A stretch of DNA of 64,000 bases, taken from Thuidium tamariscinum. Taxonomy: Eukaryota; Streptophyta; Bryopsida; Hypnales; Thuidiaceae. Positions within the stretch are counted from its first letter, which is position 1. The number at the start of each line of letters is the position of its first letter. The position numbers and the translations under genes are program-made. Below are positions 32,543-56,316 of the stretch, piece after piece. The DNA lies in contig OX344750.2 in the NCBI GenBank assembly GCA_947034885.2, positions 33,776,821 to 33,840,820 of the forward strand, written 5' to 3'. The notes beneath the pieces are model-generated. The model saw only the letters and a list, made by a program, of their open reading frames with translations, was not told where the DNA came from and did no database searches.

Positions 32543-32602
32543 CACTACTAGAAAATGGTGTCCAAATCAACAAAAACTTAACACTTTTTTGTTGATTTGT
32601 AT
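32543..32602 (+). repeat. CACTA left terminal inverted repeat and subterminal repeats
   Basis: The TIR begins CACTACTAGAAAAT; GTCCAAATCAACA follows at about 32560, then AACACTTTTTTGTTGATTTG. The last phrase is inverted relative to motifs in the right subterminal region. Confidence 0.85.
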
Positions 32603-33136: not shown

Positions 33137-33829
33137 ATGGAGGGAGGGTTGGAGGTCGCTAAGAGCGAGGAAACCATTCCAGTCGACAAGACGTTCTCTT
33201 CTACTGCTTCCTCGGGTGCGCCACTTCGAATTTCATCTCCCATTTTTGAATTTTTCTGAGTTCTGGGTTTAGGGTTTAGGTGTTTGTCTTAGGTTTTTTT
33301 TGAGTTCTGTTGAATGGTTAGAGAATTTGAAGTTTCGTGATCGAGCTATGTGCTACAGAGGGAATTTTAATGTGAAGTGCGTCGTGATCTTTTGTTTCTG
33401 TTTCCTCATTCGACATAAGGATGGTACAGGTATTTCATTGCGATTGGTGCAAGAGTTAGCGGGACACGATGACAGGTAATTATCTTTATTGGTATCATTT
33501 ACTCCTAATTCTTCCTGAAATAAAGGTTTGGCTGACTATACCCAGAGTTTATGTAAAGGATTCTTTGATCTTTTCAGAAATGTTGTGATTTTCATGTAGC
33601 ATCTCTTTATATCTTTTTCTGTTTTCCTTTTGTTTTTATGGTTTTGTAGTTTTACGATTTTTATAACTTTGTATATGTGTAATTCTTTTTGATTGGCAGA
33701 GTTTGGAGTGTTGCGTGGAGACCATGCGGAGGTTCGTCTATTCTAGCGTCGTGCAGTGGGGATAAAACCATCCGCATCTGCAAAAATTCTGCTAGGAGTT
33801 CACCGTCTTCTACTACTTAGGCTTGCAAG
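33137..33829 (+). pseudogene. CIAO1: CIAO1-like WD40 gene fragment (5' exons)
   Basis: Three exons with GT–AG junctions in phase: 33137–33215 (MEGGLEVAKSEETIPVDK…), 33430–33475 (ISLRLVQELAGHDD) and 33700–33829. Joined, they give the first WD repeat of the cytosolic Fe–S assembly WD40 protein: ELAGHDDR, VWSVAWRPCGGSS, ILASCSGDKTIRI. The repeat's closing Trp is Cys here (RIC for RIW), and a TAG stop follows at about 33818. The remaining six or so blades are absent. Introns are retained, so this was copied from genomic DNA. It lies first of the captured fragments in the CACTA element. Confidence 0.8.
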
Positions 33830-34647
33830 GTCTCTTCTTTTATTTCCTCTCACCTACTTCGTTTTAGATGCATTGTTAAGTTTCAGTTGTACAAAATTTG
33901 AAATACACCCTGAACTGATGTTTTGTTGATCCACGAGGGTAGTGAGGTTGTCCTGAGTTTGCTATACTTGCTGGACGCGGTTTGAACCCTAGAAGACCAA
34001 AATTCCACAGTCATATAATGGTTGATTTGAGTGATTATTTTGTGAATAATATAATTCAGATGGGTCCAAATTTTATCTCTCCAAGATCAGTGAAGAGCAT
34101 TGTATGGGTTGGTCAAGATTTTATAGAATCGAACAAGAAAAGTCCTTACATGACCTCCTCAAAAGTGCCAGAAAAACATGAGACACCCAGTTTGGGCTTC
34201 TTGGTCCTCCTGGACTTCTGGCACTATTTGGCGGAGCAGGATCTTCGCCTCAGAGTCTTGCAGGATGTTCGGCGCAGACTCTCGTAGGATGTTCGGCTCA
34301 TAATCTCGCAAGATTCTCAGGATGGTTCTCGAGCTCAGGAAAGTTCTCTTGAGGTTCTAGTGATGATTGCTAGTAATCGCGGGGTCTATATTTGAGAGTA
34401 TTGAAATGATCCACCTCCTGAATTGTATAATTGAGCTTCGAGATGTCAAACAAAGAAAGAAATTGATGAGTAAGCTCCTCGTGTGTCGATTATCCAAGCA
34501 GGGGATTGTCTTGATTGTTTTGAATTCTGGATTATGTCTTCAATCAATTGCTAGATTGCTACATAAATTTTTGTATCCTTCTTTTTAAAGAGTCTACTGT
34601 TTCAGGTCTATGAAAGCAAATATACTTGGAAGCATTTGAATTTAGAG

Positions 34648-36736
34648 ATGGAATCAACACCATCCAGTGGAGCATTTACTGGAGCAACATTAGCCGAGAA
34701 GCTAAATAAGCTCAATGCTTCGCAACAAAGCATTGAAAGTATCCTTGGACTTATATTGACATTGGTCATTTATGTTGTTTTGATCTTGGTTTCATGTATT
34801 CATTTACTTCCTGGGTTGGCCGTTATTTTGTGTGCGCAGTTTTTTGGAAATCTTGACTGAGTTCAGCTCTTTCACACTGGTGCATATTCCACCGAAAAAA
34901 AACGAAGGAAATTATAGATACCTGGGCTTCTAAATTTCATGCCACTCCAACGGAGCAGCGTATACCTTTCTTATATTTGGCTAATGACATACTGCAGAAC
35001 AGCCGGTGGAAAGGTCCTGAATTTGTGAATGCATTTTGGACCGTTTTGTCTGCCATTCTCAGAGACGTTCTTGACTCTGGAGACGATTCAGTTCGAGATT
35101 CAGCAAACCGCTTGGTACGTAGAATAGCTATGCTTTAAATTTGTTATTTGGCAGCGAGTCTTAGGCCTGGAATGTTGATAGGGAGGTTGTGTTCAAACTT
35201 GTTGTGTGTTTGGCCTGAAGGTAAAAATTTGGGAGGAGAGGCGTGTTTTTGGTTCTTGTGGTCAGAATCTCCGTAAAGAGTTGCTTGGAAAGCGACTCTA
35301 GTCACCGAAGTAGGAGATCAAGCAGACTTCTTCACGAAGTAATTAGGTTCAACTCTCGTTTATGAACAGAACGTTATTCCAGATATTTAACTTCTTATGT
35401 TCTTGAAGTTGGTGAAAGTTCACTTGGGCTTTGAATTACATCGGCTTTGATGGGTTGAAGGTATTTGAAGGGACCTTGCTCGAACATGTGGCAAAGTCAT
35501 ATCAAGAAGCTCAAGAGAAAGCTGTCGATGAATATGGAGCCCTCTCAAAGTGCAGTGCAGCCTTGTCTTTGGTTGTGAGCTTAGAAAAAGAAGCTGAAAT
35601 TGGAGTTGCTAATGGTATTTGGACAGATCGATACTCTTTAAGATTGAATCACGTTTTTCCAGTTTCTTATCTTGGACAATGGCCAGAGTTTAATGAACTC
35701 TAGTGATTTTCTCTCCCGTTTGTTAATCAGCGGACAATAATTGTAACTTACACACCCTCTCACTAAATGATTTTCTCTCTCGTGAGATTTACCTTTGAGA
35801 TTACGTGAGATTTACCTTTGAGATTACGTGAGATTACGTATGTACTATTCAGTGCCTGGGACCTGATGGTGTCGTTTTATCCGCCAGACATGGATACCTC
35901 TTACTTACCACACAATCAAGTGCTGAAACGAATTTATTTTCATTTATATCTAACTTTACACTAGCTCCGGGTTCAACTGATTTCTACATTTTCTGATAAT
36001 TGGTGAGCAGGCGATATGCATACGTCAGTGTCTGACGAGTTGCTGGAACAAGAGCTAGTGATGCGGCAGTGTATAGAACAACTTGAATCGTGTGAGAAGA
36101 GCCACGCTATGCTCTGTTCTGACCTGGAAGATGCTCTTCTTGAACAGGTACCAGCTTGATTCTGGCAACTTCCTCCACATTTATGTTACTGTTTTCTTTT
36201 CCATTTTCTTACAAGCATTGTAACTACGTGTTCATGAGGTGTCCATGTGAAAAAAAATCTGTTTCTGACTAGCTGGTTTATAGCTTGTCATTACTAATAC
36301 ATGAAGAAAGGGACAGTTAGAGGTGCTTGTCTTGCGTCTGCATAGATGACAATTAATACTTATTTGTTTTCTGGAGTCATAACATTATCTAGCAATGGAA
36401 GTAGGGTGACGTTGGGTTTCATGCAGAGAGAAGTGGCTTGTTCACTAACATAGAGAAAGTAATAGGTGAAGAAGATCATTGAAATTTTTGGCAAATGCTC
36501 CTTCATTTTGCTACTTCTTTCACATAGTTATTGACTGCATGACGCCAGCTTATCCTCCATGTACTTGTTTGTTGAATTTGCAAACTCCGGTAATTGCAGA
36601 ATATTCTGTCTTCTATCTTTTTTTTTAACATCCAGGGAACCAAAACCCTTCTTAAATAATGCAATGTTAGTGTATTAACTATAATACGTATCTGGCACAG
36701 GAAAATAAGTTGGAGGAGTTGTGGGCACAACTTCAG
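34648..36736 (+). pseudogene. CID-domain (RPRD1-like) gene fragment, six exons
   Basis: Related to plant RPRD1-type regulators that bind the RNA polymerase II C-terminal domain. Exons: 34648–34738, 34867–35114, 35221–35301 or a little beyond, about 35431–35614, 36011–36147, 36701–36736; most phases agree. Joined sequence shows ATLAEKLNKLNASQQSIE, LSHWCIFHRKKTKEIIDTW, QRIPFLYLANDILQNSR, then VKIWEERRVFGSCGQ, which is the CID fold, followed by coiled-coil-like MRQCIEQLESCEKSHAM and ENKLEELWAQLQ. Exon 3 runs into a TAG at about 35299–35301 and no clean donor is visible. No exons follow 36736, so the proline-rich C-terminus is missing. Captured with introns in the CACTA element. Confidence 0.78.
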
Positions 36737-36780
36737 GTTTCTCTCTATTCACTACTCAATTTATGGTCCGATGTAGTGTC

Positions 36781-37377
36781 TAGGGCCCACACACCCAGAA
36801 GCTAAGCTCAGCTGTAGAGAAATCCACAGCAGCGTCATGAGCAACATGACCCGCCAGCTCTAGGCTCTGCAGAAGAGATAGAAAAAACAGAGTTAAAATT
36901 GAGCAGAACAGAGAGACCCAAAGGAGTGGGATAACATCCCCAGGAGTGATCATCACCCTTAAGGGCATAAAGTAACACCTTGATGCACATGTCGAGCGAC
37001 CTAAGTACAGTTCAATGATGGACTAGGACTGACCAGTTGAGGGAAAATATGCTTATGTACCAATAGTTACAGACAACTTACTTGAGCTTTGAATCAAGGG
37101 TTTTAGAGATAGTCTTGTAGTAATGACGATGAGGTTCGTGGTCTCTGATCTTCCGGGGTTTGTGCACATTGTAAGCAGGGGTTACTATTGTGGATTTCTC
37201 AGTTTGAGCGCACTCTTGCAGGAGCTTTAGGCTTGCGTAATTGCCAATGGCGAACTTCTGATTTGTATTACTTGAGTCCAGGGAATGAAGAGGAGCGAGA
37301 GACTTTTTGAGTGTGGATTTCAAATTTTCAACTGGTGTTGAGTTCGCTCTTGAAATTTTGGTGAGTCTAGAGCCCAC
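36781..37377 (-). pseudogene. Unrecognised divergent gene fragment within the CACTA element
   Basis: Opposite in strand to the PRP31 fragment. A 99-codon frame starts at 37377 (MGSRLTKISRANSTPVEN…) and runs to a GTAAGT donor-like site at about 37081. A second exon-like block at 36781–36870 has an AG acceptor and reads LELAGHVAHDAAVDFSTAEL to a stop. The phase between them does not match at the sites I see. The start lies about 90 bp from PRP31 exon 1 in head-to-head orientation, as though the original PRP31 promoter region and a divergent neighbour were captured together. Family unknown. Confidence 0.4.
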
Positions 37378-37469
37378 GTCTTGTTACGGGTTAAACCCAA
37401 ATTTGCTAAACTGAGGCTTGATTTATCGAAGAACAGTTGTTGCCACCATCGTTTGTTGCATTCAGAATC

Positions 37470-39335
37470 ATGGTACGCTTTGCTTTTCCCTTCAAAAATC
37501 GTTGATCACACTTATTTTGGTTCTGGGTTTTTGGGTTTTTGTAATGTTGTGTGATGGGTCGTTGTTTGAAGGATTTGTAGTTTTTTCCCTCCCATAAAAC
37601 AAAATTAATAGCACTCGGACGTTCACTGATTTTTGTTTGTTGATTACGATTTTTTTCTCTTTGTCTCACGTGAATTACGATGCGGATTGTGTATTGGTGG
37701 ATGATTAGGGTTTGGGATTTTCAGCTGCAGTTGTGCAATTTCGTCTGGGTATGGAGGAATATTAATATGTCTTGGCGTTTTTGTACGTAGGCAACATTAG
37801 CGGATTCCTTCTTGGTAGATTTAGACGACTTGTCTGACGATGAAAATCACGATGAGGTATGCTTTTCGCTTCTTACCTTTTTTTTATTGTAAGTTTTTCT
37901 ATGTTGAATCTGTATAAAAGAGTTTTATCTTTTTTTGTAGATACTGCAAATCAATAATTGTGAACATCGGTATCGGCAACGACCGCTGAATTGACAGATT
38001 GTTTCTCGATTGTGCCTTCGCTTTGTCATATGTTTCTGAGTTTTGGATATTTCAATAATTGAATAAAGGTTTTTGCGTATATTCAACTTAAAAGCTCTGC
38101 TTCCTTTCTTGTCACAAAGGTCTTGTCACAAAGGTCTAGCAGGGCTTTTCCAAGAAGCTGTGTCCAGATTAGGTTCTTTTAGCATTTTTTTGTTTCTATT
38201 TTGCCTAAGAGTGACCATTTGATCTTTCTTTAATACCTAACTGCCCAAGGTGAATATACAAATTATTTTGAAAGTCAATACTCTTTGTAACTTTCAAAAC
38301 ATATTTCTATCGATTTTTAATGTAGGCATGAATTCTTCTTTCTGCAAGTGCATTTTTTTGTCTTAAATGATCTATTTCAACTCCTATCTTAATGGAAGAA
38401 GCCGATGTAGGCAATTTTCGCAAGTATATTCTAAACTAAAGACTTACTCCGTATTGTTTTTTGCTTATAGTAGTTCACTAGCATGCTCCTTCGTTTTTTT
38501 TGTTTGGTTATTTGTCTTAATAAAGCATGCTAACGATACGATTGAATGTGTTGGGTGCGGCAGGTGGTCTTGCTGCGCTTTCCAAAATGCTAGCTTGCAA
38601 TGTACAGATCTTGGGTGCCAAAAGAAAGAACCTGGCTGGATTCTCAATTGCAATACAACTTCCACATACGGGTTTTGTATTTCAGACGGAAATTGTGCAA
38701 AGCACTCCTCCACTACAAATGAAGGCTTGCTGTTAAGTTACAGGGAAGTGCACACTGGCTGTTTGGGTTGATTTTACAAGAGGTGATCTTTCTGCAAAAA
38801 TTGGTGAAGACTTCTGGGAAGAGATTGGAAAGAACATTGAAAAGTGGCCAGAACCTCCGCCTCCTAAACATTCGTCGTTCTCTCCCTGAAATCATTGTGG
38901 GTGTCGTTCAATTGGTTTTAAAGATAACATTCTACAACTTTATTTTGTCTGTTGTTTGTAAGGATATACTTGAATCTCTTGTGTTACTTTGGTAATGTGA
39001 TTGTTGAGCAGTATTTTTATTGCACACATGAAGCTAAGGTTCAATTCTTGTTGTCTTCACAGGTATACCTCGACTTACATGCGCAAACTTGCAAATTGGA
39101 TGAAATTTGGTACACCTGAGGAGAGTTCACTTGGTAATTTTCTATACTTGTTTTTTCCTTACAATTTTACTGGTAATATCTAGTAACATATGTTTGCGAT
39201 GCTCCTTGATGACTAATGACTAAGCTGTGATCGTATTGTGCACAGGGGATGGTTTGGGAGAAGGATATGGTATACTTGGGCAGGTGGGCAGTGGTAAACT
39301 ACGAGTCTCGATTGGTCAGAGTGACAATAGTCTGT
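37470..39335 (+). pseudogene. PRP31: PRP31 (U4/U6 snRNP) gene fragments
   Basis: Exon 1 contributes only ATG (37470–37472) before a GTACGC donor. Exon 2 (37791–37856) gives ATLADSFLVDLDDLSDDE, the typical plant PRP31 N-terminus. The central region is missing. From about 38526 to 38887 the Nop domain appears ([39 protein letters not shown], then DFTRGDLSAKIGED, IEKWPEPPPPK) with a TAA stop at about 38734. Exons at about 39063–39133 (MRKLANWMKFGTPEESSL) and 39246–39335 (GDGLGEGYGILGQ, LRVSIGQS) follow. Introns are retained. The stop and the missing middle make it non-functional. It is the third captured host gene in the CACTA element. Confidence 0.82.
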
Positions 39336-39485
39336 AGAATGTGTTTGAGGTTGCTCTGAAGGTTACAGGCCAAAATGTTTTCTAGCACAAGATTGCTTTG
39401 AAGGCTCCTGATGGGATAGATGTTAAGGGGATAGTAGATAACTGGCTTGTGGATTTATTGACAACACTCAATGTTCTGTAGCTAG
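39336..39485 (+). other. Coding-like remnant, unrecognised
   Basis: After the PRP31 exons a stretch reads HKIALKAPDGIDVKGIVDNW and then LLTTLNVL before a TAG, with an upstream TAG in the same frame. It has coding character but I do not recognise the family; it may be another captured fragment. Confidence 0.3.
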
Positions 39486-39589
39486 CTTTCTTTAGGTATC
39501 ATATGATATGACACCATATTCCCATGATATGACAAACATATATAATTTGCTACACTATATTCAAATTTGTGAGTTGCATGAAGTTGTTA

Positions 39590-39814
39590 TGTGAATGGGC
39601 ATCCAAATCAACATTTTTATGTCAATCATCAACACAAACGTGTCAAATTGGACAAAAAAATGAACACTTTTATGTTCATAGAGAACAAAAAAGTGTCAAT
39701 TTGATTGTCCAAATCAACACTTTTTTGTTCATCATTGTCCAAATCAACATGTCCTAATTAACAAAATAAATCAACACTTTCTTGTAATTTTGGACGCTGA
39801 ATTTTCTACTAGTG
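39590..39814 (-). repeat. CACTA right terminal inverted repeat and subterminal repeats
   Basis: The terminus reads GAATTTTCTACTAGTG, the inverse of the left end. Inward lie repeated phrases: ATCCAAATCAACA at about 39600, GTCCAAATCAACAC at about 39707 and GTCCAAATCAACAT at about 39737, with CACTTTTTTGTTCAT. They match left-end phrases. Confidence 0.82.
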
Positions 39815-40423: not shown

Positions 40424-43400
40424 TTAGACCTTTATTTTTATCATTCCTGCTTTCTCTAGTAGTGTCATAATCTCATCCATGCTAAAGCTAGGGGCATGAA
40501 TGAACTTGTCCTTCTTTGGGTCAACCTTGCACAAATAACGAAAAATATAATATAAATGTTTGCAGTTAACATACTTCCCTCTCTTGCCAATGGATGCAGA
40601 CAACATACCAATGAAGTACAAGCAAGTGCAAGCTGGGAAATTTGAAATAGTAACACGATATACCATGTGATGAGGTTCTACACTAGATTGTAAAGTGATA
40701 ACAGCTCCAAGGCTTGGATAAGGGAGGATGTTCACTCCAAGGATATTGCCCGTGACATTTCTTGCACTCTCCCATTGATTTTGATGATCATTAGTGGGTG
40801 CCTTGTCATTCCTCCGAATGTTTTTTCCATTTCGAATACATGGAGGTTTGTCGGAGTGAGCTGCCTTTGAGTAGTTCCATTCCAAAACCTCGAAAAGTCT
40901 GGAAGATGTGAACAAGCGACGCGGAGACAGTGATGGGCGCTCTTGAAGGCGAAACCCAGCTTCGTGAAAAAGTATAATCTCATGAGAAGTCAGACTTGTA
41001 TCCAACATCACAGGCCAGATTTCAGGTAGTTGAGGGCGACTAAGGACATGAGACCTCCTAGGTCCCATAACGCAACGTTGAATGTCATCTGGGCAAAACC
41101 AGAAGTCATTTGTTTCAACATTCATACCTTTGTACTCGCGTTTCTGGCCTTTATACATTGGTGCTACTACAGCTTTAGAACCTCGAACTATGGACATCTT
41201 ACACTTCACCTCCGTCTGCACTTGAATGGCATGGCACTTCCTCTTGGACTTTACAGAAATGCGAGCAATGTACCACTGTGAAGGGTCACAATCCGTCTCC
41301 AAAACGTGCATGACATGAGGAAACACTGGATCTCCTTCATTTGTAGATGCATTCAGAGTAGTGTCAAATTTCAATTGTACTCTAGGGTGAGAGAAATTGA
41401 CCTTATCTGGGCGGTGAGAATCACCTTCAGCCCCAATAGGCTCATCATGCTTGCGCTTTGTGGAGCCAAAGACTTCCTCTCTTTCTAAATGGGGTATACG
41501 TGTACACAGTTCCTCCACACCAGGCATACTGCACAACGCATCAGTAATCTTCTTCCCGTCCATTGATGCTACTGCTCGCTCTAACTTCAGATCATGTCGG
41601 GATGGTCCAGTTCCAGAAGGTCCACCATTCAGGTACATGCGATAATTTGTCATTTGCATAAATGCTCGAATCCAGTCGTCACAAGTGGCAACATATAAGT
41701 CGGTACCACATTTCCCAGATGCTTGAAGCCACTTGTTGTGAATTGTTTCCGATAGGTTGCAGGATGGAATATCCGCTTCTTCGTCTGTTGACAAACTCTG
41801 GAAGTACAATGATAGGATATGTTAATAAAAGTGACAAATGAGAATAATATAACAAATCCTCAATAGCCATTTTAAAGAAGGAACAATCATTCACCCAATA
41901 CTATGAAAGAACTGTCCTGAGATATCCAAGATACTTTTGACTATTAATACAGAAAGAACCAAATCCAGCTAGGACATACAAGTGTTTTCATTTAGACCTG
42001 TGGTTTAAGTGGGGGCCAAGGCCGCGACATCAATCAATCACTAGGGGATCACGGGCCCTTTCCATAAGATGAGAGGTTGTATATTGGCTATGAAATGGGA
42101 AACCGCAATCCTACAGTGAAGGCCTCTCGGTGGCGAGATAGGATTCAGAGGACGATCCCAGTTGCAACTGAGGGACAAGTTCACTAAGTAGGAATAGTTC
42201 ATATGTGAAAATCTTGAAACTAAGGTTGTGATGAAGACAACATGGACTTTGTAGAAGAAGAAATAAATAAATGAAAATACTTACTGTCTCCATGAATCCA
42301 CCCCATTGGCGATAACGGAAGTGCCAAAAAGCTAACCATAGCTCTAGCTCTCTCAATGACTCTTCAGAGGCTGCACCGGACGAATACCACCATGCCTTGA
42401 TTTGAAGATACTTGCTCTCCACTTCGTCTAGAGTCTTTGCATCTTTGTAATCTCTACAAAGCCTTACGTGTTGTGCTTGCATATCTCTCTTGATGAGTCG
42501 CTCTGTGTGTTGTTTTAAAGAAGTTGCCCAGTGGAAAAGACATGTGCGTTCTCTATCAACCATTTTGATGGATGCATCACCGGACCCATAAACGATCCTA
42601 ACAGCATTTTAATTTGCTTGAGCACTATCTGCCATGAAGCCTTTGAAGTTGGGATTGTCCAAGCCATTTTTCTCCATAACTCGATTCAAGCATCTCCACA
42701 TAATGGCCTGGCCTCCGTGTCCTCGGATTGCATGTCGCAAACCGCTATAGTCATCACCTTGCAATAAATCGAATCATAAACATGACAAGCGATTGTGGTC
42801 CATCCTTTGACACACTTAACATGGTCAAACATAAGCCAACAATTTGCTAGATCCCCACCTGCTTGCATGCGCTTCACGAGATCGACTCCACTGCCAGGGC
42901 CATCCACTAGCATCTTGAAGAGGTAAACTTTCTCTTGTCCTTGTCCGGGAAATACACTGTCGTGAATGAACTCGATCTTAGCCTGCTTCTTCATTGCAAG
43001 TAAGGGGTTGATCTCACCTCCCCCGCTGCCATTGCTTCGAAAGGAGGCAATGATGTTCCGAACGTTTGGAGAACTTAAGACCTGGAACTTGTCCATCACT
43101 GCATCTAAGGCAGGCCCCTTCAACATTTCTTTCGGAGAATCACCTGAATGAACCAAAAACGTATCCAGGAATTCCTTGCTAGTAGCTAAAGCTATTGCGG
43201 AGGCTTTAGCTGTAGGAGTTTTTGCGACCTCCTTTTCTAGAAGGCCAGAAATGGTGTCTACTGAATCTCGACAAAGACCATCTAGAACCGGGTGGTTATG
43301 ATTGCCTAGGTGAATGCAAGCCCGGGTCATATGAGATGATCCTACGACATAGTAGATCCTAGCGTCACAGAAACTGACACAGGTAGGTGAAGCTTTACAA

Positions 43401-44440
43401 ACTCTACACACTAATGTAGAATCTCGTGGTGGTATTGACCCTACGAGAAACGGAGTACTAGTATTACCCAACCACTCAGTCTCGTTTTTCTTAGAACACC
43501 TAGATATGTAATTGCAAGATGTGTTCGTACAAATAAGGTGACCAACGCATGAAGACTTCCTAAATTTTAGTCCAAGGTTGTTGTGAATGTTTGAGGTCAT
43601 CGTGCGACACCACGTATGACCATCGTATCGTTTGTCCATGCCAGTCATACTCTTAGAAGAGTTGGACAAAGGTAATGAACGACAAGGTGGCAATTCTAGG
43701 ACAATATCACCGTCAAATGATGTAGGAAGAAATGGAACTGTCTTACGCTCAATCGAATCAAAATCTATCTGAGCTAGCTCATTTCTGCACCCTCGAATAC
43801 TACATAGCTTTTTTAGAGATTCTATAATATTAGAACTGCCTTGCTCTTGTGGATACAACGGCGGCCGAGAAAATACTGAACTACCAGCACTACTATCTCG
43901 CATACCAACGGATTGAGATGTGCCAAGGTGGACAAAAGTCCCAACGGTTTCTGATTCAGATGCAGGGCTGTTATACTTCTTTGGGACTTCCTCTGAATCA
44001 CTAGACAACTCAACAACAGGACAAGAGAAGCTTCCTTCATCATCCTTTGATGAAGTAAGACCGTAATGAAGAGAAGAGGGCGAGAGTCCATTAGGCTCTA
44101 TCTTGACGGCTCGCAACGTAGGAATAGAGGCTGCGTCGGGCACAGACACTGGCGTCAAAACCTCTGTTGAAGCAACCATGACATCTGATGCTAATCTATA
44201 TGCCCTGTAACGACCTGCACCTAAGTTCCAAAAAGGTCCGTCATCATTTCTAATTCTGTGGATAAGAATCGAGTGGATAAGCGTCCCAGATTTAGAAAGT
44301 ATCTCTTCTTCCACATAGATAGAAGACTCAACAAAACCATATCGCACATGAAGCAGGTGGCTTGAAACTTCCGCTAGACCAGAGCAGTCAAGACAAAGAT
44401 GAAGAGGGACCTCATGCCCATTTGCTCTGATTGAGGCCAT
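40424..44440 (-). pseudogene. MULE-transposase-related gene, copy 2 (nearly complete, two lesions)
   Basis: Two coding exons on the minus strand: 44440–42285 and 41797–40424, joined GT–AG in phase. Predicted features in order: an acidic-Ser motif VELSSDSEE near residue 145 that resembles a SUMO-interacting motif; a Cys/His cluster at about 290–390 (VCRVCKASPTC…, ACIHLGNHNHPV), a WRKY-GCM1-like finger; the transposase core (FDHVKCVKGWTTIACHVYD, NFKGFMADSAQAN, CLFHW); and a C-terminal SWIM finger CTCLYF…NCKHLYY. Lesion 1: a one-base frameshift near 42711, after QSEDTEA; the next frame continues IMWRCLNRVMEK. Lesion 2: an in-frame TAA near 42610 right after SAQAN. Otherwise the frame is well kept, so inactivation looks recent. 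Mutator-like fold assignment is by motif; no TIRs were found. Confidence 0.75.
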
Positions 44441-46420
44441 CGCATGAACACAGTACTGGAAAATGAAAAGTGAATGCTGTCTCCGTTGTGATGCATCATG
44501 ACTTTAAGCAGAGATTGTCTTGTTTAGGAGTCATGAAATTGTAGTATTTTTAAAAATAATTCAATTGTGGAACGCTAATAAGAAAATTAGGTAAAAATGA
44601 CATTAAGTGGATCAAATTCCCATGAAAATAACATTGATGAGTACTGAAGAACGGAATAATATCATGTTCTAAAATCTTGTTATATTGTGCTTGTCAGTCC
44701 AAGATGTGCTTACAGTCCACTTAATCTTTTTGAGTTTCAACTTTGAGTAGGCAACCTAACTTTTCATAATGAATACAGGTACCTGTATAGACAGTTTGAT
44801 TTACCTAGGACAAAATCACATCTTGTAAATCCATAGTAAATACAAATGCAGACAAGAATCTGATAATATTTTGCCTCCTAGAATTTCAGAAGTACAACAT
44901 ATAAGTAACTAAAATATATATAGTATGATCATAATGGATCGACTAATCCGTTGCAAAATGCTCAGGAATTAAGAATCAAAAATCCATGAACAACAGTCCT
45001 TTTTTAAAGGAAAGACCAATAAATTCAGTTGTTAAATACTATAACAATGGTGACTTTCAAATCTACACCCAAATCCACTTGTAGCGTAAATATAAGATCA
45101 AATGAAATCGGAAGTTCAAAAATTGAAACCAGAGATACTAACGGACAACGTCAACCTGTAGACATATAAATTATGATTTCACACTATGGAATAATTCATT
45201 TTCGAGATAGAAAGTAAGCGTTAGAATAGACATGTATCCATCTATAAGACACGAGTTATTCAATACTTGGGTGAATTCAGTTTTTATAGAGACGCCAAAT
45301 TATGGTTGAATCCATTCCCGAATGCAGTAGGAAGTCTGTAGGTAAAAAAAGAAAGAGGGGGATGAGTCGATGCTTTAGTAGTTTGAAGTCCTTGAGAATG
45401 TCTCGTGAAAATTGACGCAGACATCTCGAAATTGCTCAGTCATCACCGAATGAGGGACAAGATATGAGTGGGATGCCGGAAGATACTTATATTGATGGAG
45501 TCAATGAAAATGGTGGACTACCTCGCCCAAGTATTCACACCAAATTCCTTGCGCACATCCAGGAGAAGAACGTCAACAGAACTCAACCATGCAATGTAAG
45601 TTCTTGTACTCACCAAACCCAATGCATGGTATTCCATCTATGCAAGGTCCGTTTCATTCTATTGCACACCAATTCAATTCAATCTATCTTCCAAATTTCC
45701 AATTACATAGGTGTCAACGATGTTCAAATCAATTCAAATACTATGATTTTTTTATTTTATATTTGAGAATATTTTATTATTTTGAATTAAAAAAATAAAA
45801 TAAAATAAAAAAATGACCCTTGCCGGCCTAAGCCCAACAGGATCCCGATTAGGGTTTCCTCGACAGAGGCCGGCGCACTGTCAGGTAGAGAGGAGCGCGC
45901 TTAGGGAACACACAAGGTGTCTGGTTGCACGTTGATGAGTGAAGTTGGGTAAGTCTTCAAAACTCGAATCTTCTCTTGATCTTCACTCGAATTTTTGCTT
46001 GAATCTTCACTTGTTCTTTTGTTGGCCTATCCTGTGGTTGGCTCTATAGGGCCAAGGGTGAAGGTGTGTGATAAGAAACAAGGCTTCGAACAGGTAAAAC
46101 GGGACGGCCAATATGAGTGACCGTTCGGATGATGGGCCTCTAAACTTCAAACCCACGATGACCAGGAAGCGCCTTTCATCAATGGGAACAACATAAAAGA
46201 TCGACCATGTGGGCCATTAATCCCACTTCGTCACCACAAACACAAAATGGAGCGCTTACTCGATAACCACGGCTTGCAACGGTTTTACAATGCAGAAATT
46301 GAATTTTCAACTAGCCTCCAAAACTAGCTGGGAATAACAGAAATGAAAACGAGCCACAAGCCACAACACAAAGCTAGATCCTCGGCATGTACGGCCTTCG
46401 AATCTTCAAGTCTTCAAAAA
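44441..46420. other. No gene recognised
   Basis: Mixed AT-rich DNA upstream of the MULE-related copy. An open frame at 45464–45766 (100 codons) lacks recognisable motifs. Around 45835–45930 the sequence is GC-richer, without coding sign. Confidence 0.4.
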
Positions 46421-46429
46421 AATCCAAAG

Positions 46430-46556
46430 AACCCAAAGAACCCAAAGAACCCAAAGAACCCAAAGAACCCAAAGAACCCCAAAGAACTTCAAAGAACCCC
46501 AAAGAACTTCAAAGAACCCCAAAGAACCCCAAAGAACCCCAAAGAACACTAGAAAA
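46430..46556. repeat. Microsatellite of CCCAAAGAA units
   Basis: About five exact AACCCAAAG units are followed by longer CCCCAAAGAA and CTTCAAAGAA variants. It produces spurious Lys-Asn-Pro or Lys-Glu-Pro open frames. Confidence 0.85.
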
Positions 46557-46574
46557 CTTCTCCTCTTACTAGTT

Positions 46575-47440
46575 GCGACTTGCTTTCTAGTGCTACAGAT
46601 GGCTTAAGTCTCCAAATACTTAGTGTAATAGCATTTTGGAAAGATAACTTTACAAGGAAAACACCCTCCAAATCTCAACTATATCTAAACTACTGTCCAA
46701 AAGTTATTAGAGTGCAAAGTAGCGGTTCCTTAAATCCCTTGGCAACCAAATATTGCCTCTATATTTTTCTATAACTTTTGAACTACAAATCCAAATTGCA
46801 AGTGTGATAGCAATTTAGAATCCTCAAACTAATATCCACAATCTCAAAAAGTTTCATGAGAAACTAAGACTCTGTCCAAAGGTTATTAAGGAACAAAGTC
46901 TCGGTTTTCTAAACTATAAAGGCTACACTCCTTCCTATCTTCTACACTCTATAATTTCTTCAATAAGAGTTCAAATGAAGTGAATGAACTCATTATGAAT
47001 AGGAAATTCTACAAACTAACTCTACAAGAATTTTCAAAGACATATGAGAAACACACCCAAAGTTGTGGTTGTTTCAAGTCACGGCTTTTCTCCTTTCAAA
47101 CTCAAATTTTCCTCCAGACCTTCAACTCCTCATAACTTTCTCCTCATAACTTTCTCCTCCAAACTCCAAATCAGATGAGTGATGACTTTTTGGAAAGCTA
47201 CTACAATGATATACAATCCCTCTAAATCTCAAGACAAGATGAAAAATATTTCAAAAGTTATGGCTCAAAGAAGCCTCTGCTCTTCTCAATGGAAGACCTT
47301 AGGTCCTCTCAACTTCAAAACTCTATAACTTTTGATCCACAAGTCCAAATTCAACTTGCAAGCACAATTTGGAAAGGTCTAATCACAAGGAATCAGATGC
47401 CAAAGTTTCAATTCCAAAGATTCAATTCTCAATGAGCTAC
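46575..47440. repeat. Diverged ~180–190-bp tandem repeat
   Basis: A recurring phrase of the form AACTTTTGA-CACAA-TCCAAATT followed by TTTGGAAAG occurs at about 46773, 46950, 47136 and 47329, spaced 177, 186 and 193 bp. Units share an AAAGTTAT/CAAAG block in their second half. Divergence is high. Confidence 0.45.
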
Positions 47441-47796
47441 ATCAACCCAAAATTCGGCTTCAAAAACCCCCGTTAACACTCACATACAAAACTCCTTTTC
47501 CACACACCAACTAAGCATTTTTTCCCTAATTTCCTCCCCATCATAAGTGAGGGGGTGAGGCACATCAGCCTATACCCCTACCAAGACCCCACCTAAGATT
47601 CCAATCACTTCCCCATTCACACTCTCCCTTATCACCAAACCCCAAGCTAATTTTTCTATCACAAAAACTTCATTCTACATTTAATCACACATTACGATTA
47701 AAATAAAAATACTCAAAATATAAAATTAAGAACTAACATTCAATAAATGTTTATTAGAGATTAAAAACTAGAGTTCCAATCGAAGCTTCACTTCAT

Positions 47797-48165
47797 TTAC
47801 AGAAACTTGAGGATGCGTTTGATTGTTGCAGCGACATAATCAGCACGTTTCGCTTTTGTCAAAGGATTCACCGGTCCTTCTAACCATCGTTCGTGACCGC
47901 GACTCCCTTCAATAGGCCTCACCATACCAAAGTATTGTTCGTCGTTTAGACCTTCAAAACATCCTTCAAACGTCACTTCACGACTTCTGGGCTCAACACA
48001 CTCAACTTGCAATAAGATCACCAAAGCTCGAGCATCTCGTTGAAGGTTCCCGTGCCACCGTTGCTCCACACGAGGTTGTTTCGGCGGTCGAGAAGGCCCA
48101 GAAAAAACCCTCCAGTTCGACATTCTAGTTCTAATGTGAAAACTAAACTCACCAACGAAATCCAA
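47797..48165 (-). CDS. Hypothetical protein, 122 aa
   Basis: A single open frame starts MDFVGEFSFHIRTR, with an internal Met at residue 15 (MSNWRVFSGPSRPP) as an alternative start. It is Arg-rich and moderately charged, ending AATIKRILKFL. It has no signal peptide, membrane segment or motif I recognise. Its composition is more coding-like than the surrounding DNA, and it lies head-to-head with the ParB-like gene, about 460 bp from its ATG. It could be a small gene, a first exon or a chance ORF. Confidence 0.4.
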   Translation of the reverse strand: MDFVGEFSFHIRTRMSNWRVFSGPSRPPKQPRVEQRWHGNLQRDARALVILLQVECVEPRSREVTFEGCFEGLNDEQYFGMVRPIEGSRGHERWLEGPVNPLTKAKRADYVAATIKRILKFL

Positions 48166-48622
48166 TGAAACTCTAAGGCAAAATCATGTTCTTATATGAA
48201 TGTTGTACATCTCAATAGAACAGCGTCACCTTGAAGTTATTCAAAGAATTAACGTCACCTTGAAGCTACCCAATAAAACATATTATAATATGTTTGTACA
48301 ATATGTAGGAATTTACAACAGGACAGCGCACAGGCCCTCGACACGCCTCTCTCCCTCCCACCGCGGCACTTTGCGTGCATCCTCTAGAGAGGTTGTTGCT
48401 ACCCTGCTCGAGATTTCGAATCTCCTTCGCGTGATCTCATTGTCCTCTTGGTGTGAATTCTGATTGTATAAACCTTTGCAGTCCCACAATCAATTTACTT
48501 CTCAAAATACGAAATTCTCATTTGTGAATGCATTTCTCCCTTTTGGATTTCTTGTTATTGGTTTTCTTGCGAATTCTTCTAATGAAACAATCACTTTGTG
48601 TCAGATTGTTTGCGTAGCATCA

Positions 48623-51600
48623 ATGAAGACTCGAAGCGGGGCGATTGTGAGGACGGAAGCCACCGCCGTGCGCCACAAAGAGAATGATCCACCTGATCTC
48701 GAGGTATGAAAATGAGGCCTATAATCTTGCATTTTAATCTCGTTCTAAGGAATTTGTGATCTATTTCTTGCGTTTGGGGTGGGCAATCACACCCCACCCA
48801 AGTAGGTCGGGCGGCCCAGGCCCTCTCGCCACCGAGAGCTCGGTTGAGGGGGGCCGCGGCCTAAGTTCTTTTTTTAAAAATTGGATGCCTGTCTGTCCGA
48901 ATGGGGTGGGCAATCACACCCCACCCCAAGCAGGTCGCGCGGCTCGGGCCCTCTCGCCACCGAGAGCCCGGTTGAGGGGGGCCGCGACCTGAGTTCTTCT
49001 TTTAAAAATTAGATTCATGTCTGTTCGAATGGGTGGGCAATCACACCCCACCCCAAGCAGGTCGCGCGCCCCGGGCCCTCTCGCCACCGAGAGCTTGGCT
49101 GAGGGGGGCCGCGACCTGAGTTCTTTTTTAAAAAATTGGATTCCTGTCTGTTCGAATGGGGTGGGCAATCACACCCCACCCCAAATAGGTCGCACGCCCC
49201 GGGCCCTCTCGCCATCGAGAGCCCGGCTGAGGGGGGCCGCGACCTGAGTTTTTATTTTAAAAATTGGATTCCTGTCTGTTCGAATGGGGTGGGCAATCAC
49301 ACCCCACCCCAAGCAGGTCGCGCGCCCCGGGCCCTCTCGCCACTGAGAACCCGGTTGAGGGGGGCCGCGGCCTGAGTTTTTATTTTAAAAATTGGATTCC
49401 TGTCTATCCAAATGGGGTGGGCAATCACACCCCACCCCAAGCAGGTCGCGCGCCCCGGGGCCGTTATTTGTATTCTGATTGTGCTAACATCCATCTATTT
49501 TCCTATTGCATGATTAGGTGAATGATACACGTGTTACATCCTTAGATCCGTCCTCTACCGACGCGGGAGTAGAAGATACTGAGGACCATAGTGTTCCTGC
49601 TCTTTCAATACCGAATCCTGCGGCTGGAGTAGGAGATTCTCATAGACAAGGCGTTCCTTCGAGTTCACTACCGGTCCCCACCCCGGAGGATGAAGACCAA
49701 ATTCGAAGATCCCAGAACGTTGATTCAATATCAACAATTGCTAGTATGAGAATTTCTCCTCATCATCTCTCCCGAATGGCAATTCCTTTATGTTGTATGG
49801 TCCCCATGCCAATGGTTCGGCCCACCTTGGATTGTGATGTGGACGAGTTGGAGACAAAATACGTTCACGGGTACGAAGATGGAGCAAGAGTATTTTATGT
49901 TTCTGTCTCAAACGAGGAGGGTGAGGTTGGTGTATTTTCTGAAGATGACAAGCTTCAATGGGGACCAATTTGGAATTCAGTGAATGCTGAGTTCAACAAG
50001 GAGCTCCGCAGTCACATTGAGTTGCAACACTTGGTCGATGCCAAGTTCTACATTTGCGATGGCAACCACAGGTATGCTGCTTGAATGCGGCATATAAAAA
50101 GGCTTCATAGTGGAGATACTAAGTGGCACGTTCGAGTGGACTCAATCGTCTTGGACACGAAGGATAGGCTTGGGACAGCAATGCAAATCATGCACGATGT
50201 GAACAAGTGAGTTCTCTTTTCTTATTACCACTGGTTTGTATTGAGATATCTATTGACCATTTGGAATGCTTACAGTGTGTTTGTTTATGAAGGCACACGG
50301 AGAATTCATTCGTGAAGACAAACCTTGTCCACACACTCTATCGTGTTCGTAAGTATGGAACAATGTCCATTGAGAAGTTTGCGGAGCTCTTGAGCCCAGA
50401 GGAAGTTAGACTTTGCGGCAGCCACGCCCAAAGAAAGACTTGGTATACGATGCCTCTGGATGTATTCACCACATTCATTTTTTAGGTTTGACAATGTAAA
50501 CTTTGTCTTATTGGTATGTAATTCAGTTTCGAAGGACATTTTGTTTTATTTGTTGATTTCGTCATAACATTCAAATTGCTCATGAACTCTTTCTTGTTTT
50601 GGCAGCAAGAAATATCTATTGCATCAGATGCTGCAGTTCGCAAGTATCGTGAGGAGACTGCCCCAGAAGATGTATGTAGTGCTGGTATTACAAATGCTAT
50701 GAGAAGTGCTACCAAGGATGCCACAGACAAGCTTTATAAAAAGCTTTCTAAGATTGTGTCCGTTGCTAATCTAACATTGGGAGATGACTGGCTGAAAGAG
50801 GTGTGTCATTATAGCTTTAAAATTCTTGTCAATTTTTATGCTACCTTATGTTTAATTCTATTATGTGTTGTTTTATGCTTGCAGATTGAGAGGCACTGGA
50901 GTTTGTATAGTGTCTAGGAGTTGACGCTTGACAAGCTTCAACTTATTGCTACTGCCAATGCTAGCCCACAACACAAGGTGAAGTGGCTGAAGTGGATAAA
51001 TTCATCCGCTCCTACTCGTGAAGCTCGTCGGGTTCCACCCCGACTAGCTAATGACGATAAGATTGGTTCTTTCTTATCGAAGGCGGTATGGTTTGCAGGG
51101 GTAAGTAAGGATATGCATTTCATTTCTTTTACTTTTATTTAAGACGCTTAGTAAGGATGATTTGCCTAGATGTGCTGATATGATTCCTATTTGTGTGTAG
51201 TTGGAAGATGCAGCTCTTGAATTGTATGACACCATCCTCAAGTCTGACAACATCCAAGTTAACATGGACGTGCCCGCTGAGCCAATGTCTCTTTCTGACT
51301 ACATCGAGTCTTGGAGGATGAAGTTGTGGGAGCACTCATATCCCGGAGTTTTCAAAGGTGCTAAGGCATTCAAGAAATCTGAGTCCTTTAAAGACTATAA
51401 GGGCTCCCTTCTTGCCGTGAGACGGCTCTTATACAGGTAGTTCTTTCACTTCATTTTGATTTGCACCTTCAGTTATTTACCTTAGTTTTTATTAGGAATT
51501 TGGAATGTCGACAATGTCTTTGGAATGTAATGTACATATTGACATAACTCATGATCATAGAAGCATCATTTTTCATTGCTTCCATCACGAGTTCTAATTG

Positions 51601-53906
51601 ATGTCTCATTTTTTTTTACCTTCAACAAGATTTAGTATGAGCACAATATGGTTGTTGATTTCATGATTTGTATTTTTCAATGGTATTCACTTATGTTGTG
51701 TTTTACTTCTTCAGATACTTTACATTTGAATTATATGGGAAGCAAGCTATCTCCAAGTCAAATTTGCCCCCATTCTTACGCACATGGTGTGACTCGACAT
51801 CATCTGATTGTATGTTTTCACCCACTCAATTGAAGTTTTGGCCAGTTGGCCATCTTCAACTTGGTGCGTGGTACTTGGATTGTAGCAAGGGATTTATAGC
51901 ACCTGAAGAACTGGTGCTCTTCCAAAGTATCAAGGATTCTGTTGTTGTGGTGTCGGAGGTTGATGAGTTCTCTGCATTGGAAGGTGAGGCTCATGACAAG
52001 GCCATCAAGAAGTGGGAGTTGGAGAATAAGAAGAAAGAGGAGCAGTGGGAGGCGGCCAAGAAGAAGCTAGAAGACACCGAGGTACGAAAGAGAGAGAGGT
52101 TGTCTGAGAAAGCAAAGAGCGACACTAAGGAGAAGAAGAAGGGGAAGAAACACAAGGCAAAGGCTACTCCAGTGGAGCATGCGACAAGTGATGGGGCCGC
52201 TAATCCCACTTCCTCGGGTTTCTCGCTTACAAAATCTCAGATGCAACAGGGCAATCTAACTTTGGCTCCGGTTTCGATTGTGGATGCCAATGTAGACGAT
52301 TGTATTTTAAATGTGTCTCTCATCAATTTGCTTGGTTCAGATGATGGCCAATCCCCGCTTCATTCACGAAGGTTCTCTCGCTTCTGGAAAAGGTAATTCT
52401 CTATGTAGTCAATGCTTTGAACTATGATGATGTTGTTTCTTTACAGTTTAAGGTTCAATGTAAAAAAATTCTTTGTGTTTGGTTATGAACTTGTATCAAA
52501 TTATTAATAGAATTGTCCCTTGTTTTCTCTTATTTGCAGCATGCTTTAGACAAGGATCGTTTCATTAATGGTGTTGTTACTAAGCAAGCCTTAGTTGATC
52601 TGATTATAGTAGATGTTTCCGAGGGCTTACCTGTCCCTAACCTCTCCATTCCGCCATCCTCTGTTCCAATTTGGAACACCTTCTCAAAAGAGTGGCTACA
52701 GACGATATTTGATTTCGCAGAGAACTACCTCCATGATGGTGGTGGCCTTGTTCTCATGTACTCTCTAAGTCGTGAGATTCGTTCTTACATTTTGGATTTT
52801 TGTCGGAAATATGGATTTACATCGAAAATGGAGTGGACGGTGTGGAACAGACTACATCTCACCAATCCACTAGACCAATCTTCCACGGTATGTTCTTTTG
52901 GTCTTTTCAAATAGATTTATTTTTTCTTCATCTTGAAAATGTTACATTGATTCTAATGTACTGGCTTGGATTTGCAGACTGTGCGCTTCAAAATGAACTT
53001 GTATGTGAAGTCTGAGAAGTCCCGCTTTACATTTCATGATGTTCGAGCGCACCAAGCCATCGACCTTAACATTGGCAAAGATGATCTTGTTCTAAATTGT
53101 TGTGAGAAGGAGGATTTGGCAATGAATGGTACAATTCCATGGCGTGGTTCTCGTGAAAAGGCACGATCATTCATGCAAATGATCATTGAGGGAACTACCT
53201 CGCCTGGTGACATCATCATGGATTACACAGCCTCTACAGGTTTTATTCTTTACTGTATCTCACTTGATATAGTGTTTTACCACATGTCTTTGGCATTTGA
53301 ACTTTGAACTTCATATCTCATTTCTTTTAATGTGATTGGGCTTTTGCAGGAGCAAGCATCTACGCTTGTCGGGCTACTGGCCGCCACATTGTAGCGTTGG
53401 AGGCTGACAAGAGCATTTTTGATGCACTTTTAGCTCCACTCATACGCCCCATTTCAGCTCTAGAGCCAACTCCACAAAGCTCTACACCTATCCCAATTGC
53501 TGACGATGCATGAGGACGTGGTACCAATTCATCAATTGCAGAAGACTTCGCGCTTTAGTAAGTTCTTTTTTTTTCAATACTTTGACAATGTGAGTTTCCA
53601 TTGTTTGGTATCTGACATTTGGTGTCATGATTTTGTAGGCAGGCAGCCGAAATGAAGATGCAGACATCCCGACCATTTTTTGCTAAACCATCGTTTTTTC
53701 CTAGCCCCCCTAAACCATTTCAGTTACCTAGCTATGCTGAGGCAGTAGCTACGCATTCTCAGACCATAGATACTCAACCATCTTTTAGATCTCGTAGAAC
53801 GGATCCACGAGTATCATTGTTTGTAGATGACTCTGCTATAGAGTTAGATAGTGAACTATCTACGAGTGGTGAGAGCTCTACATCAGGGTCTTCTAGTCGT
53901 ACCTAG
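48623..53906 (+). pseudogene. ParB-like plus amino-methyltransferase-like fusion gene, copy 1
   Basis: Exons by GT–AG and phase: 48623–48703, 49518–50206, 50293–50461, 50606–50800, 50885–51100, 51201–51436, 51715–52392, 52540–52887, 52978–53239, 53350–53513; a likely 3' exon spans about 53640–53906. A ParB/sulfiredoxin-like region (KFYICDGNHRYAA, then KWHVRVDSIVLD) comes first, then a Lys/Glu coiled-coil linker (51990–52160), then an N4/N6-methylase-like domain: VDLIIVDVSEGLP, YLHDGGGLVLMYS, NGTIPWRGSREKA, TSPGDIIMDYTASTGASI, GRHIVALEAD. The DPPY catalytic motif is replaced by DVSE. Stops: TGA 50082–50084 straight after HRYAA, TAG 50915–50917, TGA 53511–53513. Exon 7 to 8 does not keep frame at the sites I see. 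Bacteria have ParB–methylase fusions of this order; a transferred origin is inference. Confidence 0.72.
48776..49460. repeat. GC-rich 128-bp minisatellite in intron 1 of the ParB-like gene
   Basis: Five and a half units start GGGGTGGGCAATCACACC at 48776, 48903, about 49030, 49158, 49286 and 49414. Each contains a perfect hairpin CTCTCG-CCAC-CGAGAG (with variants) and a GGGGTG/CACCCC inverted repeat, ending in an A/T tract. The array lies wholly between donor 48704 and acceptor 49517. Since 128 is not a multiple of three, open frames through it on both strands are artefacts. Confidence 0.9.
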
Positions 53907-54239
53907 ACCCCCCTAGACTCTCTGATTTTGAACCCACTATACTCGTATATGATATTTTGTGTTGGTATCTACTTGCTTCTATCAGCCATCACTGTACTGA
54001 ATGTATATCCGCTATTTTCTTACTTCTAAACCCTTTCTATGCCCTTTGTTGGACTTTGGTGTTCTAACTTCATTTGTTTCCTATTTGTAAACCGCCCTAA
54101 AACTTTTTCCACGGTCTTAGGCCCCTACTTTTAAAAATTCCAAAAAAAGTTGAGAAATTCCTAGGCTCCTAGGCTCTTGGGCTCTTGGGCTCTTGGGCTC
54201 ACGCTCCTGAGCTCGCAATATAGCAACCCCGTATTATGA

Positions 54240-56316
54240 GGTCATGGTCTTTGGTGGCTCTTCAAAAAGGATTCTTCATATTTAAGGTCCACTCCTTTCA
54301 AAGAGCAAGAGGATACAGAGGCTACAACAAAAAAGCTTCTATATAGGTAGACCTTTTACTTCAATTTCATTCATTTGTATAAATTTGAATTGCTTATTTC
54401 CTTTACAAATCTTTAAAATAGTGACACTTGCATCTTTATTATTGCAATGATTTCATTTACTCTATGAATGCAGATATTTCAAGCGAGAGTTGATTCAAAA
54501 AGGTGGGATTGAGAGGAGATCCATGCCCAAGCTTTTCAAAGGATGGCTTGACACATCTTTGAAGGGTTGTATGTTCACCTTGACTCAACAACGGGGGTAT
54601 TCTATCCAAGAACTTCAAGCTTGTCCTTGGTACTTGAAGTGTCCAAGGACTTTTGCCCTTGCTCTTGAAGGACTTGAGAAAGAAGCAGCTAAAGACCATC
54701 CCAAATCAATCACATAACAGGAGTCTTTAGATGAAGAAGAGGAACCTAAGGAGATTGTACCAGCAAAGAAGGGGCGAAAGTCAAGGAAGAAAAAGATTAC
54801 AAAGAAGACAAAGAGTGACAATGCTACCAAAGATGACACCCCTTCTTTATCTGTGTCTGCATCTATTATTGCACCTCCTCCTCCTCCTATGCCTCGTGGT
54901 ACAATCAAGGTGATTGACACAGCTCGTTCTCATTGCCCTCCAACTCTTATGTTTATTACAACAGATGTTTTTGCTTCATTTGAGTATATTGTCAAATCGG
55001 AAATTCAACTTGATAGACATGGAATTGAGCCTCAAGCTCTAATCCTACCATCATCGATTTTTGCAATGCTCAGCATCAATGAGAAGACAAGGGACAATGC
55101 ATCAACATGGAATGAAATGCTTGATTTCGCCAAAAAAGTAAGATTTATTCTCCCTAGTGTTGTTGTAATTCTTTCTACTTATTTTATAAGTTATAAACAT
55201 GACATTGCAATTCATTCATACAACTAAAATTATATATTTTTTATGTTTAGGTTGGGAGGGAGCGGGTCCAAACTCTTGGAGGCAACGAGAAGTCTAGTGC
55301 TCCATACTTTGACTTGATTGTTGCAAATATCCACAATGGATTATCAATCTCCAACACCTCAATTTCACCATCTCATATCCCTGCATGGAACATTTTAAAT
55401 GAAGAAGAGGTTATTGAACCCATCTTTGAGTTTACTTCAGAGCACATTCATGATGATGGAGCAATTTTGTTGTTCCATCTAAAGAACGGCAAGATAAAGG
55501 GATTTACACTTGAGCGTGTTGATGCATATGGTTTTTGTCTACTTGATTCATGGACAGGCGTGAACGAGCTAAAACTTTCTAGTTACAAGAAATCCAAACG
55601 TTGGATAAGTTCCATTGAAATTTCCCTAATGTTTAGTTTTAAATGTTTGAACCTATTTCTTGCAACATTGTATTTATCAAGTATTAATTGTGAAACTTGT
55701 TTATCCTTGGCAGTCGCAACTCTTTCGAATCTTTCTTTTTGTATGAAAAAAATGGGAGGAAACATTGGTGGTGTCTAAGTTCTCTATCTATGTGAACCAA
55801 CAGCTTAGCAATGTAGGCACAAACCTTGAAGAAATCGACCTTCTCCACAATTTCACCTCTTCACAGACTCAACTCATGAATGGTACAATTCCATGGAGAG
55901 GTGCTCGTGAGAAGGATCCTTTATTTGTGCAACTATTGATTGAGGCATTTTCAAAACCTGGCGATGTGGTACTAGATTGTTATGCATCTACAAGTATGTT
56001 CCATTAGCTATCATTTTCTCAACCATCTTTTTTTAAAATTGTGTGTCACATATTTGTTATAAATTATAACTAATGACATTCTATTGAATGAAAAGGGGCC
56101 TCTATTCATGCATGCCGCAACATTGGACGTCATTTGGTGGCCTTGGAGAACGATACTGAGATTTATAAAGCTCTCCTCCAACCTTTGAACATTCCTCCTT
56201 CTTCCATTGCCAATGATCAAGTCAAGCACCCTCTATGCGTAGTGGTGGATGATTCTAATGATGAAGACATTGTGAGGCCTTCTGCAAGGCCCCAAAAGAG
56301 ACGTTGCTGTAAGTAA
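54240..56316 (+). pseudogene. ParB–methyltransferase-like gene, copy 2 (5'-truncated tandem duplicate)
   Basis: Homology to copy 1 starts inside its seventh exon: about 54240–54346 (…KKLLYR), then 54474–55137, 55251 to about 55560, about 55770–55993 and 56096–56316. No ParB region is present upstream. Shared features: YFKRELIQ, a Lys/Glu-rich linker, FDLIVANIHNGLS, HIHDDGAILLFHL, NGTIPWRGAREKDP, SKPGDVVLDCYAST and GRHLVALEND. The DPPY position reads NIHN, and the glycine after YAST is Arg (spliced AGG). A TAA at about 54715 interrupts the linker. Near 55690–55760 two frames compete (NSFESFFLYEKNG versus the exon frame), indicating a frameshift. Protein divergence from copy 1 is high, so the duplication is old. 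Confidence 0.68.

Follow-up and report, generated by a model that had tools for sequence, protein, structure and literature searches.

The DNA analysed here is a 64,000-nucleotide stretch of the Thuidium tamariscinum genome (contig C2, positions 33776821-33840820, in an assembly of 363 Mb and 19 contigs), hereafter called the window. It contains two copies of a gene joining a ParB-like region to an amino-methyltransferase-like domain. We found that this feature is carried as cargo by a DNA transposon present in many copies, which has imperfect terminal inverted repeats and is flanked by target-site duplications of 9-10 bp. Its two genes, one SWIM-type and transposase-like, the other ParB-methyltransferase-like, are divergently oriented. 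On balance, the evidence leans towards a joint reading in which the cargo protein is a self-recognition factor with parS-like sites.

A dispersed transposon nested in an older relative

A six-frame genome search with the ParB exon of copy 1 gave at least 150 scored matches among 566 candidates, window copy included; this count, like that of the SWIM loci given below, is a lower bound. Twenty matches were 87-99% identical to the query and the remainder 43-87%. Therefore, the gene belongs to a dispersed repeat family and is not unique. Element 1, which carries copy 1, was delimited by comparison with full copies on contigs C10 (about 12.4 kb), C9 and C8. Homology among these three copies starts and stops sharply at CAACGACGCTAAATTGTGAGCC on the left and at GCTCGCAATATAGCAACCCCG on the right. 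The terminal repeats correspond to a GAGCC-type motif. The left-end motif occurs 53 times with at most one mismatch, as compared to 0 for the reversed control.

32299-32307, no strand: left target-site duplication TATTATGAG of element 1
32308-54231, no strand: element 1, transposon, left terminal motif CAACGACGCTAAATTGTGAGCC, right terminal motif GCTCGCAATATAGCAACCCCG
54232-54240, no strand: right target-site duplication TATTATGAG of element 1
32543-39814, no strand: 7.3 kb insertion inside element 1, missing from the three full copies compared
45877-48325, no strand: 2.45 kb insertion inside element 1, missing from the compared copies

A 9- or 10-bp target-site duplication was observed in seven of the eight copies with both ends read: TATTATGAG in the window, TATAGGAAAT on C10, TTTCTTACC on C8, TTGTAAGAA on C6 (24.68 Mb), GCTTTTTGAT on C11 and, read by eye, GTGCAAGAT for C7 and ATCTTTGGG for C8b. 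The remaining copy, on C9, has no target-site duplication. A second C6 copy (5.39 Mb) was left out of this count, as the stretch read stops short of its left end.

Element 1 is itself surrounded by the remains of an older relative, element 2.

29211-32133, minus strand: remnant of the SWIM-type gene of element 2 (40-51% amino acid identity)
32178-32307, plus strand: 5′ part of exon 6 of the copy 2 gene, cut by element 1
54241-54347, plus strand: 3′ part of the same exon 6, continuing from 32307 once the flanks are joined
54478-56316, plus strand: linker and methyltransferase-like exons of copy 2 (54478-55140, 55251-55560, 55747-55995, 56095-56316), with NIHN at 55326-55337

In their methyltransferase parts, copies 1 and 2 are 34-36% identical. 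A further piece of the copy 2 gene aligned at 32145-32303, immediately to the left of element 1. When the two flanks were joined, a single alignment ran across all 79 positions of exon 6 (33% identity, E=4e-11, one stop retained). Therefore, element 1 jumped into exon 6 of its older relative. No convincing terminal repeats were found for element 2.

A previous sequence-only reading had described the locus as tandem copies of a plant nuclear gene. Both parts of that description have to be replaced: the two genes are cargo of repetitive transposon copies, one inserted within the other, and their side-by-side layout came about by chance through nesting. A pair of ordinary host genes in tandem would explain why two copies with similar exons lie near each other, but it is scarcely credible in view of the 150 or more matches scored genome-wide. 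Tandem duplication of host genes is ruled out at this locus by the dispersed copies, by the target-site duplication and by the splitting of exon 6 by an insertion.

The copies are unevenly spread. Contig C11 (17.5 Mb, the smallest among eleven large contigs) holds 33 of the 150 scored ParB exons, that is 1.89 per Mb as compared to 0.12-0.62 on the other ten; it may be a repeat-rich or a sex chromosome.

The ParB-methyltransferase-like protein

Copy 1 spans 48623-53906 and is spliced from about 11 exons, of which the following were delimited.

48623-48703, plus strand: exon 1 with the probable start ATG; putative splice
49518-50206, plus strand: exon 2, ParB/Srx-fold domain with CDGNHR; TGA at 50082-50084
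50293-50485, plus strand: exon 3, ending in TAG (50483-50485) where relatives have a sense codon; boundary set from intact relatives
50606-51436, plus strand: exons 4-6 (50606-50800, 50885-51100, 51201-51436); TAG at 50915-50917
51715-52392, plus strand: exon 7, charged linker; frame lost near the 3′ end
52540-53510, plus strand: exons 8-10, methyltransferase-like domain (52540-52887 with DVSE at the motif IV position, 52978-53239 with TASTG, 53350-53510 with GRHIVALE)

Copy 1 is not an intact gene. As compared to the family, it carries the three stops listed above and frameshifts near 52320-52380 and near 53510. With respect to the relatives, the three stops resemble C-to-T or G-to-A transitions, the kind of change produced by deamination of methylated DNA.

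Across the family, the protein has 1073-1110 residues, exon 1 not counted. A predicted ParB-CTPase/Srx-fold domain at its N-terminus is joined by a charged linker to a beta-class adenine-methyltransferase-like domain at the C-terminus. The sequence-only reading had proposed this order from motifs that we find where it placed them: DGNHR in exon 49518-50206, the charged linker at 51715-52392, GGGLVLMYS, PWRG..EKA..SPGD, TASTGAS and GRHIVALE. The order is supported by the predicted structure of the ParB region of relative P0043, which adopts a ParB/Srx fold, and by the match of the family profile to CcrM. The ParB-like domain contains a P-motif with its conserved arginine (DGNHR). CDGNHR was present in 115 of 120 proteins among the matches listed; the modelled alignment, from which all five exceptions are missing, has it in 55 of 55. 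A protein search with the ParB exon gave 502 matches at E<=0.01 among 4152 candidates, and one with the full-length profile gave none at this threshold among 7992 scored.

The family profile matches the N6-adenine methyltransferases CcrM (6pbd, residues 31-261; E=2.3e-5) and DpnA (5hfj, 5hek; 2e-4), with homology over the domain and the same motif order, IV-X-I. PF01555 was matched in four of four members (best 2.9e-5), member 1 reaching just 0.011, below the curated cut-off. In the CcrM alignment, ADPPYNL stands opposite VDVPEGL, so that DPPY faces DVPE, and GDVILDPFFGVGTT stands opposite GDVVVDCTASTGAS. DVSE of copy 1 (52612-52623) and NIHN of copy 2 (55326-55337) occupy equivalent positions. 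Motif IV could be located in all 33 sequences, both window copies included: the first residue is D in 30, the third P in 25 and the fourth acidic in 29. The canonical (D/N/S)PP(Y/F/W) motif was found in 0 of the 33. P0001, the sole match at E<=1 in a protein search with the spliced C-terminus, is counted apart from the 33 and has DVPE. Within this genome, DxP[ED] is the form that the family commonly shows. The earlier proposal that the loss predates the duplication holds in that the loss is older than both copies; DVSE and NIHN themselves look like later drift from DxP[ED]. The FxGxG motif for S-adenosylmethionine (AdoMet), like DPPY, is not kept, and an invariant TASTG is found instead (alignment A1, four sequences).

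The ratios of nonsynonymous to synonymous substitution rates (dN/dS) were calculated pairwise by the Nei-Gojobori method. Between subfamilies 1 and 2 (five pairs), they were 0.10-0.15 in the ParB exons, 0.07-0.11 in exons 4-6, 0.13-0.15 in the linker and 0.19-0.25 in the methyltransferase exons. They were 0.08-0.17 within subfamily 2 (one pair). Within subfamily 1 (three pairs), values of 0.35-2.3 were obtained from few substitutions, as expected after insertion. Synonymous sites were saturated in most comparisons with more distant subfamilies. Judging from these ratios, the methyltransferase-like domain is under purifying selection although it is non-canonical in every examined sequence; therefore, catalysis would not be the whole point of its retention. 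Synonymous divergence of locus L040 from the C6, C7, C8 and C10 copies was about 0.76-0.85 in the ParB exons and 0.11-0.13 in the methyltransferase exons, pointing to recombination or gene conversion between subfamilies.

The same selection, together with the strong retention of the first and fourth residues of motif IV, could reflect a domain that has retained activity with DxP[ED] as an unusual motif, perhaps on another target or through another chemistry. In M1.HpyAVI, D29 of DPPY and E216 bind AdoMet according to extracts of PMC5173035, and both acids have counterparts here, the D of DxPE and the invariant E of A.E (four sequences). On the other hand, the aromatic residue of DPPY and the glycine pattern of FxGxG are absent. 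Dead methyltransferase folds can stay conserved too. We regard an active enzyme as improbable.

The SWIM-type gene and the palindrome array

The second gene of element 1 is transcribed divergently.

40424-44503, minus strand: SWIM-type transposase-like gene of element 1 (frames 42686-44503, 42111-42608 and 40424-41821; frame lost near 42690)

Its relatives L065 and L066 have open frames of 770 and 737 amino acids, followed by frames of 465 and 490 amino acids. To our eye, a Cys/His cluster and conserved Asp residues give the product a transposase look. PF04434 (SWIM) was matched at E=0.16 by the window gene, at 5.3 by L066 and not at all by L065, all below the cut-off, and a profile search against the PDB returned a single match at E=0.95, which is not meaningful. 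A divergent ParB exon lies within 30 kb of the SWIM gene in 63 of 72 scored SWIM loci (915 candidates; ParB and SWIM loci both being minimum numbers), as compared to 0.67 under random placement. Among the matches listed, eight of the nine SWIM loci lacking a nearby ParB exon belong to the 57-59% identity class. Mutator-like (MULE) transposons produce target-site duplications of about 9-11 bp. The duplications and the layout thus suggest a Mutator-like element.

Between the two genes lies a tandem array.

48775-49459, plus strand: tandem array in intron 1, 5.4 units of 128 bp, each with two inverted-repeat cores, GGGGTGGGCAATCACACCCC and CTCTCGCCACCGAGAG

The array contains a 16-bp palindrome, CTCTCG-N4-CGAGAG. 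Six fully read arrays elsewhere have 6 to 14 units. In the subfamilies where this stretch was read, the array sits between both genes, upstream of each, one locus excepted. For loci L001-L030, window included, 29 of 30 have at least two sites (at most one mismatch) in the 1.5 kb before the ParB exon; overall, 224 sites were counted there as compared to 0 in the 1.5 kb after it. When the consensus units of subfamilies 1 and 2 are compared, 43 of 44 columns are the same in the cores and 39 of 87 in the rest, the core limits being drawn by eye after the alignment was seen. In a far subfamily on C11 (ParB exon 44% identical), the same interval shows no such tandem unit and contains 11 dispersed sites at up to two mismatches, for 0.07 expected in shuffles; TCGGCGCCGA is common to nine of the 11. 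One more site lies near the 3′ end of the ParB-methyltransferase-like gene of this subfamily. Core 1, GGGGTGGGCAATCACACCCC (48776-49433 in the window), forms another inverted repeat, conserved in the units of both subfamily 1 and subfamily 2; it was not found in the C11 subfamily. An Rfam scan of the window gave no match at the gathering score. Conservation of a palindrome within changing surroundings is the pattern expected of a binding site, which makes the palindrome a candidate site for either protein. At L042:4859-8706, the CTCTCG palindrome occurs together with an inverted repeat, GGGGTGGG...CCACCCC, in a 235-bp tandem array that has about 16 units and is located 3′ of the gene.

The array might be bound by the SWIM-type transposase, or be an RNA or chromatin feature, with the ParB-methyltransferase-like protein acting elsewhere in the same transposon, for instance as a DNA clamp in transposition. 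The location of the array upstream of each gene fits this possibility, as do three sites between the coding frames of the SWIM gene in the far C11 subfamily (subfamily D, L066:2219-2452). Nevertheless, the terminal repeats, where transposase sites are expected, have another motif, of GAGCC type, and in bacteria ParB genes are usually accompanied by repeats of a 16-bp palindrome. We consider this explanation unlikely, though less so than an active enzyme.

A proposed self-recognition factor

In the model that we favour, a dimer of the ParB-like protein would load on CTCTCG-N4-CGAGAG sites, possibly through a ParB-like clamp step driven by a nucleotide, and the loaded protein would mark or protect the element's own chromatin. 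The methyltransferase-like domain would no longer transfer methyl groups to an amino nitrogen and would still hold DNA or AdoMet. As a self-recognition factor, the protein could serve in anti-silencing or in the assembly of transposition complexes, similar to VANC on Arabidopsis VANDAL elements. The role of DNA-binding or epigenetic reader protein suggested by the sequence-only reading was a fair functional guess, strengthened by the presence of the palindrome array. More tentatively, a eukaryotic transposon family may have kept a ParB-parS-like system, in which a nucleotide-switched ParB-fold protein would load on its own 16-bp palindromes and spread, a dead adenine-methyltransferase domain being reused as an effector or as an AdoMet/DNA sensor defending against silencing.

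Several observations weigh against the self-recognition model. PF02195 was not matched in scans of single exons, in scans of family members or in a six-frame genome search, and the Foldseek matches of the ParB-like model are weak (best E=0.019, none at 0.001). The Pfam scan of the SWIM-type gene showed no transposase domain and no MULE-type DDE match apart from the sub-threshold SWIM signal, which leaves the superfamily assignment tentative. The array, being intronic, could form RNA hairpins or serve the transposase. In subfamily B, a 235-bp array with CTCTCGGTGCCGAGAC is located 3′ of the gene. Locus L015 has no array sites; L043 and L044 have none at up to two mismatches in the parts read, which miss most of intron 1. 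Finally, single sites also occur elsewhere in the elements, outside the array.

Known systems provide points of comparison. As described in extracts of PMC12477816, the Ectocarpus transposon Sola1-1_Ec32 has a ParB-DNA methyltransferase accessory gene (1104 amino acids). By domain order and layout it is similar to the present family: a ParB-like domain joined to an N4/N6 amino-methyltransferase domain, encoded inside a DNA transposon on the strand opposite to the transposase. In contrast, its transposase is Sola1 rather than SWIM-type with 9-10 bp duplications, its product is predicted to make N4-methylcytosine or N6-methyladenine whereas motif IV is replaced here, and no palindrome array is seen in the extracts of that account. 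Such algal accessory proteins are probably the nearest relatives by design. VANC21 of Arabidopsis VANDAL21, as presented in parts of PMC5735166, is likewise a second transposon-encoded protein. It binds a short motif and causes methylation loss. Its motif arrays, tandemly repeated, are found within the VANC21 intron and also upstream of the transposase gene, and repeats are gained and lost between copies, as here; its motif is the 9-base YAGTATTAY instead of a 16-bp palindrome. VANC is the nearest working model. Together with the algal accessory proteins, it led us to propose a self-recognition factor with parS-like sites.

In extracts of the survey PMC12704722, ParB, Noc and PadC share with our family the predicted fold and the P-motif arginine (DGNHR), whereas our family lacks a PF02195 match and resides in a eukaryotic transposon. 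ParB-N6_N4 methyltransferase fusions also occur in phages according to the same source, and an endogenous viral or phage-derived gene could be imagined. This origin is very improbable: the gene is flanked by transposon ends, and no relative was found among IMG/VR contigs (two peptide patterns, 36 stretches tested) or in phage records (N-terminal 594 residues of one subfamily). Apart from the algal precedent, searches of open-licence PMC papers showed no account of the family, nor of a ParB-like transposon protein associated with a palindrome array.

Overall, ParB-methyltransferase proteins of algal transposons had been reported with a function merely guessed, and the present family gives a further handle on them, with no fewer than 150 matching loci within a single genome, a non-canonical yet selected methyltransferase domain and a candidate binding site. 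If the proposed model is true, a fold of bacterial DNA partition would be connected with the self-recognition of a eukaryotic transposon, and this type of protein may have converged on the VANC strategy.

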